From NCBI GenBank assembly GCA_018609125.1, contig JABAYF010000022.1, positions 22,248 through 86,247 on the forward strand: 64,000 bases of DNA. Reading direction: 5' to 3'. Both the position numbers and the translations under genes were made by a program. The stretch's first letter is position 1. Each line of letters opens with the position of its first letter. The notes below the pieces were generated by a model. That model saw nothing but the letters and a program-made list of their open reading frames with translations, was not told the DNA's origin and made no database searches. This document shows, piece by piece, positions 1,998 to 64,000 of the stretch. The DNA is from Candidatus Nanopelagicales bacterium (GTDB lineage: Bacteria > Actinomycetota > Actinomycetes > S36-B12).

Positions 1998-3280
1998 GAC
2001 GATGATGCTGCCTTACTCCAGGCCTGCGGGCGCCTCAACGCGGTGTCGTAGGAACCCAGCAGACCGGCGGCTGTGGTTGACCAGCTGAACTTCTCCGCGT
2101 GGGTACGTGCATGTGCCGCCAAGTTCGCCAGACGGTCGGGTGTGGCCAAGAGGTCAGAAATCACTCGAGCCCAGGTTCGGGGATCGTGGTCGGATACGAG
2201 CACGCCGCTGCGACCGTCGGCAACTGCGGTGCGCAACCCGCCCACGTCAGCGGCAACAACCGGCGTCCCACATGCTTGGGATTCCACCGCAACCAGCCCG
2301 AAGGACTCCGAATAGGACGGCACCACCGTTAAGTCTGCTGCCCGATACCACGCTGCGAGTCGTTCGCGAGGTGCTGGCGGCTCGAAGCGCACGCGATCGG
2401 CGATGCCGAGGTCCGCTGCAAGTTCTTGCAGGGCGGTGGGGTGTTCTAGACCGGAGCCGGACGGCCCACCGTTAATTGCTACGACGAGCGACAGGCCGGG
2501 GTCCTCGGCCAACATGTGCGCGGCGGCTCGCACGAGAACATCGGGGGCCTTCAGTGGTTGTAGGCGACCGACGAAGAGCAGACAACGCTCGTGGCCAGCC
2601 AGACCCACCTCACGACGCGCTGCGGCGCGGTCACCGGGCGAGAAGACGTCGAGGTCAACCCCGGGGTGAACAACGTCGATAGCTTCCGGGGCCGCGCTAT
2701 AGAGCAGGCTGAGATCGGCTGCTTCGTCCAAGGTGTTAGCGATGAGTCGAGTTGAGGCAGCCACCACCTGCTCCTCACCAATCACGCGCACGTGGGGTTC
2801 GGGACGATCACCTTCGGCGAGTCCGGCATTCTTTACCTTTGCCATCGTGTGCATGGAGTGCACCAGGGGCACGTTCCAGCGCTGAGAAGCGAGCCAGCCC
2901 ACATGCCCAGAGAGCCAGTAGTGGCTGTGTACCAGGTCAAACCAGCCCTCGGGTAGTCGCGATTCGAAGCCGAGAAGTTCAGCACTCAGTGCACACAATT
3001 GAGCGGGTAGATCTTCTTTGCGTAGGCCTTCAAAAGGTCCGGCACGCAGGTGACGAACAGATACGCCCGGTTCGATTTCTACCGTGGGGGGGAGGTCAGA
3101 GGAGTCAGCGCGAGTGAAAATCTCCACTTCCACGCCGGCGGCAGCGAGGCGACGGGCGGATTCGATCACGTACACGTTCATGCCGCCGGCGTCGCCAGTC
3201 CCGGGTTGGGCGAGTGGAGACGTATGTACCGACAGCACAGCAACGCGGCGGGGTGTACCGCGTACGCGCCGAATAGCCAT
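1994..3280 (-). CDS. mshA: D-inositol-3-phosphate glycosyltransferase (mycothiol synthesis)
   Basis: Transfers GlcNAc from UDP-GlcNAc to 1-L-myo-inositol-1-phosphate, the first committed step of mycothiol, the low-molecular-weight thiol of actinobacteria. A GT4 glycosyltransferase of 428 residues. It has the N-terminal glycine loop [13 protein letters not shown], the VHSHYWLSG segment, a [13 protein letters not shown] nucleotide-binding block and the C-terminal [19 protein letters not shown] motif with the two conserved Glu. The ATG at 3280 follows a GGAGAGGT ribosome site. Presence of mshA means the cell should make mycothiol, which is relevant to ArsC further along. Confidence 0.95.
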
Positions 3281-3368
3281 CGGGTGAACCTCTCCGTTGA
3301 TGAACGACCCTTATTCTTACGCACCGGGTCGAATCTGGCACACGGGCACGTCGGGATCGCTTCAGCGG

Positions 3369-4034
3369 TCACCGCTCAGCGAGGCTCACTTCCACGTAGG
3401 GCTCTCCGGTGACGATAGTCACGACTCGTCGGGTCACGGAGACGGCATGGTCTGCGAATCGTTCGTAATAGCGCGATAGCAGGGTCACATCAATGGCTGA
3501 CTCGATGCCATGTTTCCACGAGGGAGACAGGACGACGGTGAACAGTTCTCGATGCAGGCGATCCATCTCCTCGTCATGGCGGGCGATGTCAGCGGCCAAG
3601 CCGACGTCCTTACTCGCAATGACCGCTCCAGTTTTGGATACGATTGCCTCAGCGATGCCACCCATTTCGGCAAACACCGAGCGAACTTCGGTAGGGATAG
3701 CCACGCTGGGGTAGCGCATGCGAGCCTGCTTGGCCACATGCTCGGCTAAGTCGCCCATGCGTTCCAGGGAAGCAGAGATGCGCAGGGCGCCGATCACAAT
3801 GCGCAGATCGGTAGCCACCGGGGCCTGCAGTGCAATCACATCGGAGCACTTCTGTTCGACATCTGCACTCACCTGGTCCACATCCGCATCAGCGGCAATC
3901 ACAGACTCGGCCAGGCGTAGGTCGGCGTCCATGAGTGACTGTGTCGCGAGGTTCATGGCTGAACCGACCAGGCGAGTGAGGCGGACGAGATCGTCGCTGA
4001 TGGTGTCGAGCTGCTCGTAGTAGTCCTGGCGCAT
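3369..4034 (-). CDS. phoU: Phosphate signalling/transport regulator PhoU
   Basis: A 221-residue PhoU with two repeated three-helix bundles. Each bundle carries the metal-binding E/DxxxD pattern (for example LAESVIAADADVDQ and DEEMDRLHRELF). PhoU normally restrains the phosphate sensor kinase when phosphate is ample. The start chosen is MRQDYYEQLDTISDDL, which matches the family N-terminus and follows a GGAAGGGAT ribosome site; a longer frame to 4073 is unlikely. It is divergent from senX3 with 158 bp between start codons, a sensible arrangement for a shared phosphate switch. Confidence 0.9.
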   Translation of the reverse strand: MRQDYYEQLDTISDDLVRLTRLVGSAMNLATQSLMDADLRLAESVIAADADVDQVSADVEQKCSDVIALQAPVATDLRIVIGALRISASLERMGDLAEHVAKQARMRYPSVAIPTEVRSVFAEMGGIAEAIVSKTGAVIASKDVGLAADIARHDEEMDRLHRELFTVVLSPSWKHGIESAIDVTLLSRYYERFADHAVSVTRRVVTIVTGEPYVEVSLAER

Positions 4035-55009: not shown

Positions 55010-55444
55010 TTAGCTGCCGGAATCGGTGCCGAGGTGAGCGGTCACTTCGAGGTCGTTCAAGAGAGCGATTACCCGAGATTTGATGTCATTTCGAATAATC
55101 CGAACGGCATCAATTCCCTGACCAGCCGGATCAGCAAGTGTCCAATCTTCATAGCGTTTACCCGGATACCATCGGCATGCATCGCCGCAACCCATCGTGA
55201 TGACCACATCAGAAGCTTCAACCGCGGCGTCTGTCAGCAGTTTCGGGGTTTGCGCCCAAAGATTTATGCCTTCTTCCAGCATTGCTTCGGCGACAGCAGG
55301 GTTTATTGAATCGGCAGGTGCAGATCCGGCCGAGCGTACTTCTACGGCGCCACGGGATAAATGCTCGAGGTAGCCCGCAGCCATCTGCGAGCGACCTGCA
55401 TTGTGAACGCATACGAACAGCACAGTTCGGCGCTGGTCCATCAT
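55010..55444 (-). CDS. arsC: Arsenate reductase, LMW-phosphatase type (probably mycothiol-linked)
   Basis: A 144-residue ArsC of the low-molecular-weight tyrosine phosphatase fold. The P-loop CVHNAGRSQMA carries the nucleophilic Cys; VVITMGCGDACRWYPGKRYEDW (second Cys region) and the catalytic Asp in LADPAGQG follow. It reduces arsenate to arsenite. In actinobacteria such as Corynebacterium the electrons come from mycothiol/mycoredoxin; mshA in this window supports that. The ATG shares one base with the aquaporin stop (TGATG). It is last in the arsI-aqp-arsC operon. Confidence 0.92.
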   Translation of the reverse strand: MMDQRRTVLFVCVHNAGRSQMAAGYLEHLSRGAVEVRSAGSAPADSINPAVAEAMLEEGINLWAQTPKLLTDAAVEASDVVITMGCGDACRWYPGKRYEDWTLADPAGQGIDAVRIIRNDIKSRVIALLNDLEVTAHLGTDSGS

Positions 55445-56157
55445 CACGAACTCCGATCGGTTTCGGCAATGGGATACGGCAAATCGAGGGGTTCGGGTGT
55501 TTTTCTCGGATAGAAAACCTCGGTAATGAGGGCGCCCAGCGCGGCACCAATCACTTGGAAACTGATAAACGCCAACACGGAACCAGGTGCGATACCGGTG
55601 AAGGTATCGGTCATGCTTCGCCCGATGGTGACCGCTGGGTTAGCAAAGGATGTCGAGGCGGTGAAGAAGTAGGCCGCGCCGATCCAGGCAGGAACTAGGG
55701 CGGGACCCAGGGTGCCCTTACCGGTGCGCGTGATGACGCCGATGACGAGCAGCAAACCAGCGGTGGCGACAACTTCGCCCAACCAAATACCCGGGCCGGA
55801 ACGGATATTTGTGGATGGCTGCCATGCCATCAGGCCGAACATAAGGTTGGCCAGGGCAACACCGGCGAGTCCGCCGATGATCTGAACTCCGATGTAGGCA
55901 GCGCCCAATGGGAGCGAAATTTCACGCCGTGCGAGTTCCACTCCGGTGACGCAAGGGTTAAAGTGTGCTCCGGAGATAGGGCCTAAAATCCAGATTAAAA
56001 CGCCGAGTGCTGCGATGGTGGATAGCGCATTGACCAACAAGATGACGGCGAGGTCATCGCTGAGACGCTGACCCATGATGCCGGAGCCGACCACGGCGGC
56101 CACGAGCAACGCGGTGCCGAGAAATTCGGCAAACAGGCGTCGAGTGATAACGATCAT
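55444..56157 (-). CDS. Aquaporin/aquaglyceroporin of the ars operon
   Basis: A 237-residue major-intrinsic-protein channel with six helices and two half-helices. The first NPA box reads AHFNPCV (NPC variant), the second SFANPAV. In Sinorhizobium the aquaglyceroporin AqpS replaces ArsB: arsenite made inside by ArsC leaves down its gradient. The same gene pairing here suggests the same role. The ATG of MIVITRRLFAEFLGT is chosen, as it begins at helix 1. It is 22 bp after arsI and coupled to arsC. Confidence 0.88.
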   Translation of the reverse strand: MIVITRRLFAEFLGTALLVAAVVGSGIMGQRLSDDLAVILLVNALSTIAALGVLIWILGPISGAHFNPCVTGVELARREISLPLGAAYIGVQIIGGLAGVALANLMFGLMAWQPSTNIRSGPGIWLGEVVATAGLLLVIGVITRTGKGTLGPALVPAWIGAAYFFTASTSFANPAVTIGRSMTDTFTGIAPGSVLAFISFQVIGAALGALITEVFYPRKTPEPLDLPYPIAETDRSS

Positions 56158-56179
56158 GAGGGTTATCTGATCTCCAAGT

Positions 56180-56635
56180 TCACAAAACTTGGTCGGAGCA
56201 GCACGCGGTCTGGTCAACGACGCGCAGATTTCCGGCAGGCTCTGGGTTTTCGGGGTCATCGTCGGTTACGACATAGACCTCCCAGGGAGTTCCCGCCGGG
56301 TCATGGACCCAGACTTTGTCTTGCACCGCGTAGCAGCAGTTTGTGTTGGCTTCATCAAAGGTGGCAAGTCCAGAGTCGGACAATCGCTGTGCTGCACTGC
56401 TCACCTCGGCAGTGTCGAAAACCTCGATGCCCAGGTGGTTGAGGGCACCGGCCGGCCCTTCACCGCGGTCTGCACCGGGTACCTCAATGAGGACGAGCTT
56501 TAGGGCGGGTTCGGTGACAGCGAAATTGGCATAGCCGGGGCGCAACTTGTGCGGCGCTACCCCGAAAAGCTGGGTGTAGAAGTCGATAGAGGCATTGAGA
56601 TCAGAAACATTGAGGGCAAGTTGTACGCGAGACAT
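56180..56635 (-). CDS. arsI: ArsI/CadI-type VOC dioxygenase
   Basis: A 151-residue glyoxalase/VOC-fold protein. RVQLALNVSDLNASIDFYTQLFG begins the first beta-alpha-beta-beta-beta unit; NHLGIEVFD (metal His) and TNCCYAVQDKVWVHDPAGTPWEVYVV (vicinal Cys pair and metal Glu) identify the ArsI/CadI group. ArsI cleaves the C-As bond of methylarsenite with Fe(II) and O2. CadI of Mycobacterium is a close relative of unclear activity. A further CC pair lies near the C-terminus. The ATG follows GGAG at 5 nt. Confidence 0.87.
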   Translation of the reverse strand: MSRVQLALNVSDLNASIDFYTQLFGVAPHKLRPGYANFAVTEPALKLVLIEVPGADRGEGPAGALNHLGIEVFDTAEVSSAAQRLSDSGLATFDEANTNCCYAVQDKVWVHDPAGTPWEVYVVTDDDPENPEPAGNLRVVDQTACCSDQVL

Positions 56636-56690
56636 CAGGGCTCCGAAGGCTGAGTGATTTGGGTGGTTCGTACGGTTCATTCATATTTAC

Positions 56691-56700
56691 ATTGATCAAT
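56691..56700. promoter_or_regulatory. Palindrome ATTGATCAAT in the ars divergent region
   Basis: A perfect 10-bp palindrome between arsI and arsR. AT-rich dyads of this kind are typical binding sites of ArsR-family repressors. Confidence 0.5.
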
Positions 56701-56712
56701 AAGGAAGGTAGC

Positions 56713-56739
56713 ATCTATATCGACCGATGTCGAATAGAT
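56713..56739. promoter_or_regulatory. Candidate ArsR operator
   Basis: ATCTATATCGAC-CGAT-GTCGAATAGAT is a near-perfect inverted repeat with one extra base in the left arm. It covers an ATG at 56727, which argues for the downstream start of arsR. Confidence 0.65.
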
Positions 56740-56759
56740 TTGATGAGTCTGACGGGAGA

Positions 56760-57110
56760 ATGATGGCCACCAGGGTCAGTACGGCATTGATGGAGGCAGG
56801 CCCAGCATGTTGTCCCACCGGCCTCACCGAACCCATGGACAGGTCAACCGCAGAGGAATTGGCGCGTTTATTGAAGGCGGTGGCTGATCCGGCCCGACTG
56901 CAACTACTCGCGTTGCTGCGTTCAAGCGAGAACTGCGAGGCATGCGCGTGCGACCTCACCGAGCCGCTGGGCCTTTCTCAACCCACAGTGTCCCACCATC
57001 TGAAGGTGCTGACCGAGGCGGGAATTCTTGGACGAGAGAAGCGCGGGTATTGGACGTGGTACTTCGTCGTTCCGTCCCGGTTGCACGAATTGGCGGCCGT
57101 GCTGGCATGA
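56760..57110 (+). CDS. arsR: ArsR-family arsenite-responsive repressor
   Basis: A 116-residue winged-helix repressor. A CC pair near the N-terminus (AGPACCPTGL) precedes ADPARLQLLALL, the metalloid site ENCEACACDLTEPLGLSQPTVSHHLKVL (CxAC-type Cys cluster plus recognition helix) and the wing REKRGYWTWYFV. It should release the ars operator when As(III) binds its Cys. Start candidates are ATG 56760/56763 (after GGGAGA) and ATG 56727, the latter inside the putative operator. Its stop overlaps a 31-residue frame (ATGA). Confidence 0.88.
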   Translation: MMATRVSTALMEAGPACCPTGLTEPMDRSTAEELARLLKAVADPARLQLLALLRSSENCEACACDLTEPLGLSQPTVSHHLKVLTEAGILGREKRGYWTWYFVVPSRLHELAAVLA

Positions 57111-57231: not shown

Positions 57232-58122
57232 CTAGGGCACGAGCGGCCAGGTTGTGGTGATTGTCAAACCACCGTTTTCGTTGGTTTCGGCACGGGCACT
57301 TCCGCCCACCGCGGTGGTAGTTTCGCGAACGAGCGCAAGCCCCAGTCCGGTGCCACCGGGCTTCGCGTTACTCCCGCGATAGAACCGCTCAAAGACCGAT
57401 GCGAGGTCAGGGTCGGAAACTCCCGGGCCATCGTCGGCGACAACGAGTTGGGCGTAACCACCGTGTTCGGTCACCGAGACTGAAACCTCAGCAGCGGCGT
57501 AGCTGAACGCATTGCCGAGGAGCTCATCAACAACCCTTGCCACCGCACCTTCACCGGCAAGCACCAGCACCTGGAAATCGGGCAAGGCAGCAGCAATTTT
57601 TACACCGGCAGCATCTGCCTGAACCCGACCCACCGCAATGCGCTGGCGTACAACCTCGTGCAGATCTACCCGCACCGGGAACGCTCCAGCATCGGATCGG
57701 GCCAGTGCCAGAATCTGGTCAATGCGGTGCGTGAGCCGGTCAATCTCCACGATTGCCGCGCTCGCCTCGTCCCGTAACTGTGTTGTAGGCGCGAGATCTT
57801 CAATTGCCTCTACTCGCAGACGTACACCGGTGAGCGGAGTACGCAGATGATGCGAGGCATCTTCCGCGACGCGCTGCTGCCGACTGACCATAAGCGTCAA
57901 GCGCGCAGCCGTACGGTTCAAGGCGCGGGCCACCGAACGCACCTCAGCGGGTCCATCGTCCTCGCGGGCCTGCTGGTCTAGGTTGTCCGCCAAGTTGTCA
58001 GCAACCTCAGCCACTCGACGAAGCGGCGTCACCATGGAATAGGCCAAAATCCAGGCGAATAGGGCAGCCAGAATGACAACGGCAGTGACGAATCCGGCGA
58101 GCGCCCAGCGAGAGCTGCCGAA
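57232..58122 (-). pseudogene. 5'-truncated sensor histidine kinase
   Basis: The visible part has the last membrane helix (WALAGFVTAVVILAALFAWILAYSM), a HAMP domain (VTPLRRVAEVADNLADNLDQQ), the H-box AEDASHHLRTPLTG, N-box VDELLGNAFSYA, G1 VADDGPGV and G2 GGTGLGLALV. The first membrane helix and sensor domain are missing, and upstream of about 58122 this frame is only a shadow of the ferric-reductase gene. An internal ATG at 58035 could still give a soluble 267-residue kinase. No response regulator is next to it. The join looks like a deletion. Confidence 0.75.
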
Positions 58123-58586
58123 AGTCCAATCGCCATCCCAAGCCACAGGGCGGCAACGCCCAGGGTCACAGCCACGGGTCGGTAATCGGCAGTGAAGGGA
58201 ACGAAGGAACCTATCCAGCCCACCTTGGCCCAAGGATCTGTTGCCAGCGCCACAATGTGGGTGACCACGAGTGCCAGGGTTAACCCGGTAAGAACAATGT
58301 GCGTGCGCAAAATTTGAGTACGCCAGGGCAGAAGGCGCCCGGAGAGCAATCGGCTGGAGAGCAACAGCCCAGAAACTGTCACGAGGGTGAGGAGTGCGTA
58401 GCTGGTGATTCCTGACGATCTGGCAATGAGCCACAGGGTTGGTTCGGCTCGCTGCACAAGGAGCCAAGCAGCCACGAGCGCGATGCCGGAAATGAACGCG
58501 GCAATGGTTACACCGAAAACGATGCCCAGGGTGTGCCGGGACGTGGCTGCTCTGTGTCTGTTACTTGCCGGGAACACGATTGACAT
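58029..58586 (-). pseudogene. 3'-truncated ferric-reductase-like membrane protein
   Basis: The first 155 or so residues form helices of a ferric-reductase-like (heme) membrane domain: GITSYALLTLVTVSGLLLSSRLL and LRTHIVLTGLTLALVVTHIVALATDPW with the expected His. After WLGMAIGLS the frame runs into kinase sequence read in another frame (SPDSSLPLSFWLPYS) and stops at 58029, so the last helix or helices are lost. It starts at ATG 58586, inside the end of apbE (26-nt overlap). If stable, it could still bind heme with the remaining His. Confidence 0.7.
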
Positions 58587-59538
58587 TCCATTCCACGAGG
58601 TTACGTGCGGCTGCCGAAAACCTGACCCGGCCGTCGGCGGTGACCCAGACCGCTGGAATCTGCTGTTCGTCCATCAGGCGTCGGATGTTGCGGTGTCCGG
58701 CGAGGAACCCCGTCTTAGTGAGTGTCTCGGCCACCGCGTTATCCGGGTGCACCACGGTGACACCGTGCAGGCCAGAGTCAGCCGATGTTCCAGTACGAGG
58801 GTCGATGAGATGGTGAACGACTTGGCCGTCGCGATGCCAACGTCGGCGCTGCACCGACGACGTCGCCACAGACGTATCGGCGATACCGAGCACTGCCACC
58901 GGCTCTTGACCACATGTGGGGTCATCTACCGAGACCAGCCACCTGTCGCCTCGTGGCCCGGGTCCAAACGTCGCCAAATCACCGCCAGCTGAAACCAGCG
59001 CTGACTCCGCGTGGCCGCGCAGCAGTTCCAAAGCTTCGCGAACGGCGTAGCCCTTGCCAATACCACCCAGATCAATGGGAGTTGAACCAACCTTTACCCG
59101 AGCCCCGGCCAGGTCGAATCGAGGCTGCCAGGCACGTCGAGGTACCGGTCGAGGATGAGCCGCAGAAGGTGTGGTGTCGGCCGGCATCCGTGTCCAGGTG
59201 CGGTCATACCCCAGCGCTTGCAGTGCCGGAAGAACGCGAGGGTCAAAGCGACCGTGGGTGCGCTGATAGGCGGAAAAGGCTTCGGCGATCACCGCGCTGC
59301 AGGTGGGTGACACCTCACACCACTTCTTCGCCGCCGCGTTGGCTCGCATGAGATCACTGTCAGGGTTGAAGCGCGTACACGTGCTTTCGACCCGCGCGAA
59401 CAGCGACTCAACCTCGTCCAGGGCTTGACTGGAATCCGATCGCGGGTTGAGGAGTCGGACCGAGACGGTGCTCGCCATCGCCGAAAAAGTCCGCAGGACT
59501 TCGGTTCCTGCCGGATGTAGTGCGGTGGTTCCTTTCAT
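58561..59538 (-). CDS. apbE: FAD:protein FMN transferase ApbE
   Basis: Covalently attaches FMN from FAD to Thr/Ser of extracytoplasmic proteins. A 325-residue protein without an obvious signal peptide. Family blocks seen are MASTVSVRL, CTRFNPDSDLMRAN, the GRFDPRVLPALQALGYDR segment, the FAD/Mg loop DLGGIGKGYAVREAL, SALVSAGGDLATFG and HHLIDPRTGTSADSGLHGVTVVHP with NAVAETLTKTGFLAG. ATG overlaps the stop of the Pro-rich gene (ATGA) and the reductase gene begins inside it. Two neighbours carry acceptor-like motifs. Confidence 0.9.
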   Translation of the reverse strand: MKGTTALHPAGTEVLRTFSAMASTVSVRLLNPRSDSSQALDEVESLFARVESTCTRFNPDSDLMRANAAAKKWCEVSPTCSAVIAEAFSAYQRTHGRFDPRVLPALQALGYDRTWTRMPADTTPSAAHPRPVPRRAWQPRFDLAGARVKVGSTPIDLGGIGKGYAVREALELLRGHAESALVSAGGDLATFGPGPRGDRWLVSVDDPTCGQEPVAVLGIADTSVATSSVQRRRWHRDGQVVHHLIDPRTGTSADSGLHGVTVVHPDNAVAETLTKTGFLAGHRNIRRLMDEQQIPAVWVTADGRVRFSAAARNLVEWNVNRVPGK

Positions 59539-59999
59539 CCGCTGGCCCCGGTTGAGGTATCCGCCGGGGGCGCCGGTGTTGGCTGGGGGGCGGGTTGCGG
59601 GGCGGGCGCGGGAGCCGGGTTTGGTTGGAGAGCAGTGGGAGGATTTGGTTGGGCTTGGTTGGCGGGGCCGGGGTTCGCGGTCGCCGTCGTAGGTGGAGTA
59701 TCGGATTCACTTGATTCGGCGCGAATCCGCAGTTTCTCCAAAATGCGACGGGTGCGCTTTTCCGTGGCATCCACTTCGGCCAGGATGCGCATTACCTCAG
59801 GCGATGATTCATTCTGCACAGTTTCTGTAGACGAGACCGGGGTGGCAGAAGCCACAGTGTTGGCCCGCGGGTCGTTACCCACCACCCATGCGTTGGCACC
59901 GAGTAAAACCGTTGCGGTAACCGGAATGACAAAGAGCGAGGATAGCCAGCCCGTTCGGGTGGGTAGCGATCCGCGTCGGCTGGCTGACTTAGTCGTCAT
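59535..59999 (-). CDS. Membrane-anchored Pro-rich protein ending in an FMN-acceptor-like motif
   Basis: About 154 residues. A basic cytosolic start (TKSASRRGSLPTRTG), one membrane helix (WLSSLFVIPVTATVLLGANAWVV), a helical stretch (EVMRILAEVDATEKRTRRIL) and a long Pro/Ala-rich arm. The last eight residues are DTSTGASG. Known ApbE acceptor sites follow Dxx[S/T]GA[T/S], so Thr150 is a candidate FMN site. No folded FMN-binding domain is present. The start is uncertain because the 5' end overlaps the Asp-codon repeat of the upstream gene (ATG 59999 or 60002). Coupled to apbE by ATGA. Confidence 0.7.
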   Translation of the reverse strand: MTTKSASRRGSLPTRTGWLSSLFVIPVTATVLLGANAWVVGNDPRANTVASATPVSSTETVQNESSPEVMRILAEVDATEKRTRRILEKLRIRAESSESDTPPTTATANPGPANQAQPNPPTALQPNPAPAPAPQPAPQPTPAPPADTSTGASG

Positions 60000-60516
60000 C
60001 ATCGTCGCGGTCGTCGTCATCGTCGTCGTACTCGTCGTCGTCGTACTCGTCATCATCGTCGTACTCGTCGTCGTCATCGTCGCTATATGCACCACCTGAG
60101 CCGCCGGTGCTGGCATCAGCTGTAGGAGCCGGAGCTTCGGGAGTTCCTGCTCTTGCAGGTTCATTCGGTTGGGGCGCAGCAGTTGGTGTGCTTAATGATT
60201 GAACGGGGAGTGTGGTGCTTGAAGTGGTTGGGCCCGCAATGTCAATTGTGGTTTGGTCGCCAGAATTAATGGCAATGCGAAGTGCGCGCGCAGCATCGAG
60301 ATCTGCATTGGCTTGCGCGAGTTGTTCGCGTGCCCAAATTTCCAGTGATCGCTCTGCCTCTGTGGAAGTGGCGGCGGTCGTGGCCGCAACGCGAGTGGGG
60401 ACAACTTCAGGTTCAGCCGAGACCACGCCGGGGATGGCGGCTAAGGCGAGGCTGCCACCGGCAACGGCTGCCACAGACGCGAGACCAGCAAGTGCGGCTC
60501 TGCTTTTGCTTAACAT
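59989..60516 (-). CDS. Exported protein with Asp/Tyr-rich acidic tail
   Basis: A 175-residue secreted protein. The signal peptide ends near VVSA-EP (residue 34/35). A helical part (AERSLEIWAREQLAQANADL) and a Ser/Thr/Pro-rich part follow, then DASTGGSGGA (134-143) and a 32-residue tail of Asp with EY and R insertions. The DxSTGxSG string nearly repeats the end of the next protein. The tail should bind Ca2+ or other cations, or interact with a basic partner. It starts at ATG 60516 after GAAGGAG. The repeat is coded by GAC/GAT triplets and may vary in length. Confidence 0.75.
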   Translation of the reverse strand: MLSKSRAALAGLASVAAVAGGSLALAAIPGVVSAEPEVVPTRVAATTAATSTEAERSLEIWAREQLAQANADLDAARALRIAINSGDQTTIDIAGPTTSSTTLPVQSLSTPTAAPQPNEPARAGTPEAPAPTADASTGGSGGAYSDDDDDEYDDDDEYDDDEYDDDDDDRDDDDD

Positions 60517-62829: not shown

Positions 62830-63285
62830 ATGATGGTCGTTGAGGCGCCTGCCGTCGGGTGGGCTGAGACCTTGCGTGAACACGGTCTCAGCGTTACCGC
62901 CCAGCGGCTTGCGGTCATGCGTGCCGTGGCCGAGCATCCACACATCACCGCCGATGAAGTTGCTGATGCTGCGCGAGCACACATCGGCGCGATTTCGAAG
63001 CAGGCGGTGTATGACGCACTCGGCGTGCTCGTAGACGCAGCCCTGGTGCGGCGAATTCAACCGCAGGGCTCACCGGCGCTGTTTGAAGACCGTGTGGGTG
63101 ATAATCACCATCACCTCATCTGCCGAGACTGTGGGCGGGTGAGTGACGTGGACTGCGCCGTGGGCTCGGTGCCGTGTTTGACCGCCAGTGACGACCATGG
63201 CTTCACCATTGATGAAGCCGAGGTTGCCTACTGGGGACGATGCTCCAACTGTCAACGTGACTTTAGCCGCAACCAATCCCGGTAA
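62830..63285 (+). CDS. furA: Fur-family regulator FurA
   Basis: Redox- and iron-responsive repressor of katG. A 151-residue Fur protein with the winged helix ([45 protein letters not shown]) and the metal-binding dimer domain ([22 protein letters not shown], with a second pair in [11 protein letters not shown], a likely zinc site). It lies 16 bp before katG, the classic actinobacterial arrangement. The leaderless promoter sets ATG 62830. Confidence 0.94.
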
Positions 63286-63301
63286 CTAACAGGAGAGATA
63301 A

Positions 63302-64000
<699 letters not shown>

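Follow-up and report, generated by a model that had tools for sequence, protein, structure and literature searches.

Flavinylation by ApbE places FMN on the last residue of a D-x-x-[ST]-G-A-[ST] motif, as reviewed in PMC12052999. The acceptors described so far in the published survey of flavinylation systems and in later work are folded domains, and in that survey no characterised system was present in about half of the genomes that encode flavinylation machinery (PMC8238504, PMC11334425). Among the systems reported there are the MsrQ-like flavinylation clusters, mostly from Actinobacteria, in which the gene for an ApbE adjoins that for an MsrQ-like protein of the bis-heme kind (Meheust et al. 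2021, PMC8238504). According to the same source, a NuoF-like protein is found in 31 of 1797 such clusters, and VIT1 in some.

Here we present a locus in which apbE is preceded by two small genes, designated A1 and A2. In the window, which is the whole stretch of 64,000 nucleotides that was analysed, the gene order is A1-A2-apbE, all on the minus strand, with the start of A2 overlapping the end of A1:

59989..60516, minus strand: A1, an ORF of 175 aa with homologues in nearly all clusters
60097..60117, minus strand: the DASTGGS motif of A1, residues 134-140, where relatives mostly have TGAS
59535..59999, minus strand: A2, an ORF of 154 aa for a membrane-anchored, domain-free, exported protein
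59541..59561, minus strand: the DTSTGAS motif of A2, residues 147-153 (D147-S153), with Ser153 as the predicted FMN acceptor
59535..59538, minus strand: ATGA in the sequence, in which the A2 stop and the apbE start overlap
58561..59538, minus strand: apbE of the Glu type (PF02424), with Ser228, His243, Glu271 and Lys275 placed by alignments

We propose, with a probability of roughly 0.75, that A2, and in most relatives also A1, are linear ApbE substrates in which an FMN tether takes electrons from a reductase. A full-text literature search, covering the main text of papers available without subscription, returned no report of natural domain-free ApbE acceptors.

The original prediction had described apbE as coupled through ATGA (59538-59535) to a membrane-anchored protein ending DTSTGASG, and the gene for that protein as overlapping one for an exported protein that bears DASTGGS before an Asp/Tyr-rich tail; both descriptions are confirmed in the ORFs. 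A2 is composed of a basic N-terminus, one membrane helix and an Ala/Pro-rich C-terminal arm with the ending given above, and A1 of a signal-like N-terminus, a coiled-coil-like middle and an acidic, Asp/Tyr-rich tail of 35 residues, 26 of them Asp or Glu. Two details had to be revised. Because FMN goes on the last residue of the motif, the predicted site is Ser153 and not Thr150, as had been supposed. Also, A1 had been taken as an acceptor on a par with A2; D-x-x-[ST]-G-A-[ST] is matched by A2 (DTSTGAS), whereas A1 of the window has Gly for Ala (DASTGGS), and in some relatives A1 lacks the motif altogether. Among the 184 ORFs of at least 90 aa in the window, D..[ST]GA[ST] occurs in A2 only, 8 residues from its end.

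Elsewhere in the window, the plus strand carries a Fur-family regulator gene and, directly after it, a catalase-peroxidase-like gene (62830-64000). Beside the cluster, at 55010-57110, there are ArsR-type regulator, aquaporin-like channel, glyoxalase-like and arsenate-reductase-like genes, likely an arsenic locus.

The ApbE of the window matches PF02424 at E=3.6e-56 (191 bits, against a cut-off of 25.6) and is encoded by a single-copy gene in its genome, a 97%-complete draft of 31 contigs. FMN_bind (PF04205) had no match in A1, in A2 or anywhere in that genome, in agreement with the prediction of acceptor proteins without a flavin-binding domain. NQR2/RnfD (NqrB/RnfD, PF03116) gave no match above cut-off in the genome of the window and was absent from G000, G002 and G003, and DUF2271 had no match in the genome of the window either; with nothing above cut-off, NQR/RNF and DUF2271 proteins were rejected as the true ApbE substrate in the genus. 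A hidden FMN_bind fold in A2 was rejected as well: Pfam gave no convincing match for A1 and A2 of the window and no meaningful one for the A2 homologues, and the AlphaFold model of A2 contains no folded domain, only a membrane helix (16-40), a second helix (66-97) and coil for the rest (pTM 0.30). A search of a plasmid collection with A2 gave no match. The placement of the motif on a flexible arm, also part of the prediction, fits an arm that is variable among relatives and predicted to be unstructured. In 43 of 49 A2 proteins the N-terminal side of the membrane helix exceeds the opposite side in positive charge, so that by the positive-inside rule the arm is probably outside the membrane.

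Thirteen genomes among the relatives searched encode an ApbE 43-55% identical to that of the window, set off by a clear gap from the other strong full-length matches, which reach at most 36%. In a scan of named genomes, the ApbE group fell in Actinomycetota near Candidatus Nanopelagicales, and additional members came from other Actinomycetota, from Acidimicrobiales and from some MAGs that are labelled Bacillota or Chloroflexi. The two small genes lie upstream of apbE at almost every locus. Defining a full cluster as A1-A2-apbE with genes for a bis-heme MsrQ-like protein, a NuoF-like protein and a ferredoxin, we obtained 31 loci. In 25 of these, the terminal 15 residues of A2 include a strict [ST]GA[ST], and all 31 have a near variant (relaxed motif) at the A2 end. 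Composition-preserving shuffles of the last 60 residues of A2 gave the strict motif a mean count of 0.5 (maximum 4) and the relaxed motif one of 9.3 (maximum 17). The tails are biased in composition, and a chance string in low-complexity Pro/Ala/Ser/Thr sequence might be suspected; such an origin is very improbable, since neither the shuffles nor the neighbours of Asp-type ApbEs (see below) yield the motif, and we reject it as far as computation allows.

In an alignment of 41 A2 tails on the motif, with the final Ser fixed by the choice of anchor, Pro is found at position -6 in 40 tails, Thr/Ser in all 41, Gly in 36 and Ala in 39, and the linker is unalignable, most of the arm showing about 10-20% pairwise identity. 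At position -3, that of the classical Asp, 16 tails have His, 11 Gln, 6 Asp and 4 Asn, the window having Asp. Judged from the tails themselves, this departure in most of them would count against FMN attachment; swapping the motif Asp is reported to have only a minor effect (PMC12052999). Deviant endings include TKAS, TRAS, SKGS and RSSGS. The loci L060, L071 and L078, in which TKAS stands in place of TGAS, have ApbEs that lie close together on the tree, and this group may reflect altered recognition. A1 carries TGAS in most loci and lacks the motif in several, its polar or acidic end being mostly kept. The A1 of locus L039 (genome G057) has three TGAS motifs within a Gly-rich stretch that is followed by a long acidic tail, making it a candidate linear multi-flavin protein.

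For a reverse test, an A2 profile was built without apbE information and run on the relatives searched before. Of its best 18 matches, 17 lie beside apbE, and the remaining one is at a contig end. Some of the apbE genes reached in this manner are distant (about 30% identical), with tails ending SKGS, TRASKG or SHSS. The original prediction was to be abandoned if homologues lacked the motif or had no apbE beside them. The motif is kept at the C-terminus of domain-free exported proteins, and apbE adjoins their genes; on these two points the prediction withstands its own tests.

In alignments, the ApbE of the window keeps Ser228 and His243, and the catalytic Asp is replaced by Glu271, as throughout its subfamily; Glu-type ApbEs retain the conserved motif DLGGIGKG as well as the Ser and the His that acts as general base. 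Sufficient upstream sequence was available for 109 ApbEs, 85 of the Glu type and 24 of the Asp type. A gene with a Ser tail lies just upstream of 65 of the 85 Glu-type ApbEs and of 0 of the 24 Asp-type ApbEs, against 2.4% for other ORFs, counts (Fisher test) that are not independent of kinship because Glu-type ApbEs group together on the tree. An FMN_bind-like motif is nearby in 1 of the 85 and in 8 of the 24, respectively. The Glu label changes 6 times on the ApbE tree, against 22 when shuffled, which shows a clustered trait and not many separate origins. Tails were found in Streptomyces, Amycolatopsis, Chloroflexota, one Acidobacteria MAG and Alicyclobacillus. The A. pomorum tail, DFRSGAS, is a canonical motif at the very end, and the A2-like proteins of Streptomyces and Amycolatopsis (L091, L094, L114, L128) have two (T)RSxGS-type motifs, one of them at the extreme end.

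Although the tails are exported, no signal peptide is evident in the tail-partnered ApbEs, that of the window included; this absence and the catalytic Glu are features that would count against FMN on the tails. An actinobacterial ApbE partnered with FMN_bind (L151 in G009, 3152-3901) has no evident signal peptide either, and its substrate looks exported. The notion that linear acceptors are needed because the ApbE has no signal peptide is weakened by this G009 enzyme.

The change at the catalytic position, together with the several tails without Gly (TKAS, TRAS), could mean that the tail is an unmodified docking or recognition signal for an ApbE/MsrQ-like assembly, the true FMN acceptor being elsewhere. 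We consider this unlikely, as no other known acceptor family was found in the genome of the window, [ST]GA[ST] is not conserved in the MsrQ-like proteins, and the tails conserve the same residues that make up the known flavinylation motif. It is also conceivable that a Glu-type ApbE puts a group other than FMN on the tail, for instance another flavin or part of a nucleotide: not only the catalytic Asp but also a nearby Thr position is changed (Glu, Lys), and the acceptor is Ser, versus the Thr preferred at classical sites. The retention of DLGGIGKG, Ser and the general-base His and the redox proteins encoded by the partner genes make this quite improbable. Returning to FMN-bearing tails, we see an even chance that Glu-type ApbEs are a distinct, multi-phylum group of flavin transferases dedicated to linear Ser tails at the C-terminus of membrane-tethered, domain-free arms, and that these arms are naturally occurring swinging arms for flavin, in some cases multi-site, which shuttle electrons between a NOX/STEAP-like membrane reductase and metal-binding partner proteins of the envelope.

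Downstream of apbE, the relatives encode a small membrane protein in which four His are invariant and form two pairs (HX13H/HX12H). Ferric_reduct (PF01794) is matched by 8 of 26 of these MsrQ-like proteins, and in fold the model comes nearest, at weak E-values, to NOX5, STEAP2, SpNOX and cytochrome b561. A NuoF-like protein (PF01512, PF10589) and then a small ferredoxin follow, and a response regulator and histidine kinase are often nearby. The membrane reductase expected next to the acceptors is present in relatives, as a bis-heme protein with NADH-side partners, and survives in the window only as a truncated ORF. The Streptomyces clusters lie beside a heavy-metal (copper-type) P-type ATPase and a Met-rich protein, and a VIT1 iron transporter, recognised by reading the sequence, neighbours one cluster (L072); these are hints of metals as electron acceptors.

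In the mechanism that we propose, the final Ser of the C-terminal motif would receive FMN from the neighbouring ApbE, and A2 would be anchored by its one membrane helix with the arm outside. The NuoF-like protein and the ferredoxin would feed electrons from NADH to the bis-heme MsrQ-like protein, which would pass them to the FMN on the A2 arm, and this FMN could hand them to A1 or straight to an envelope acceptor. A metal ion, Fe or Cu, may be the end acceptor, as suggested by the acidic tail of A1, which is Met-rich in Streptomyces.

The donor side is damaged in the window:

58093..58586, minus strand: 5' part of the MsrQ-like gene, whose product shares 62% identity with its G003 counterpart as far as the junction
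58093..58112, minus strand: deletion-like junction; its 20 bases can be aligned with two genes of G003, the MsrQ-like gene and the histidine kinase gene
57232..58112, minus strand: 3' part of a histidine kinase gene, the sensor part missing, with a 71% identical orthologue in G003

The MsrQ-like part keeps the first His pair only, and its ORF continues out of frame to 58029. In G036 the histidine kinase gene lies downstream of the NuoF-like, ferredoxin and response regulator genes, and between the junction points lie the remainder of the MsrQ-like gene, these three genes and the kinase sensor part. Half of the heme ligands, NuoF, the ferredoxin and the response regulator are missing at the window junction, and the sole NuoF match in the genome, 26% identical, is presumably that of complex I. 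Either the donor side was lost or the draft was mis-joined; with reductase, NuoF and ferredoxin lost or mis-assembled, the electron chain of the window is probably broken or served by another donor. For this locus only, we lean slightly towards a decaying relic after a deletion, in which A1, A2 and apbE remain without a working donor. The out-of-frame join of two truncated genes, MsrQ-like and kinase, the 20-base similarity at that join, the lack of a dedicated NuoF and the off-consensus A1 motif point that way, against which stand the intact reading frames of A1, A2 and apbE, the canonical A2 motif and, the genome being a 31-contig draft, the possibility of an assembly error at the join. A relic in the window is compatible with tethered FMN in the family.

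If true, a class of domain-free acceptors would account for ApbEs without a visible substrate, widen flavin-based electron transfer in the envelope and offer a natural model of mobile flavin arms. The loci suggest flexible, flavin-tipped tethers as a means by which cells move electrons outward and, as there are cultured carriers (Streptomyces, Alicyclobacillus), this is open to direct testing. A published precedent is FMN_red of Lactococcus, whose C-terminal extension, itself unstructured, was shown by experiment to bear the FMN site (Huang et al. 2024, PMC11334425); that extension adjoins a flavin-binding domain, whereas A1 and A2 have no such domain. A terminal 7-residue motif suffices for ApbE in engineered proteins, the flavin-tag (Tong et al. 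2021, as reviewed in PMC12052999), of which the A2 tail is apparently a natural equivalent. Multi-flavinylated proteins, for which longer-distance flavin electron transfer across the envelope has been proposed, are described as strings of folded FMN-bind domains (PMC8238504, PMC11334425), in contrast to the three linear motifs of the L039 A1. With the MsrQ-like clusters (PMC8238504) our loci share the ApbE and, in the relatives, the bis-heme MsrQ-like protein, which is truncated in the window, but the FMN-binding domain protein typical of those clusters, as they are described, is replaced by two linear tail proteins. We therefore read the system as a variant of MsrQ-like flavinylation in which FMN would be carried on a tether rather than in a folded domain, the flexible tether being perhaps best likened to the swinging arms.
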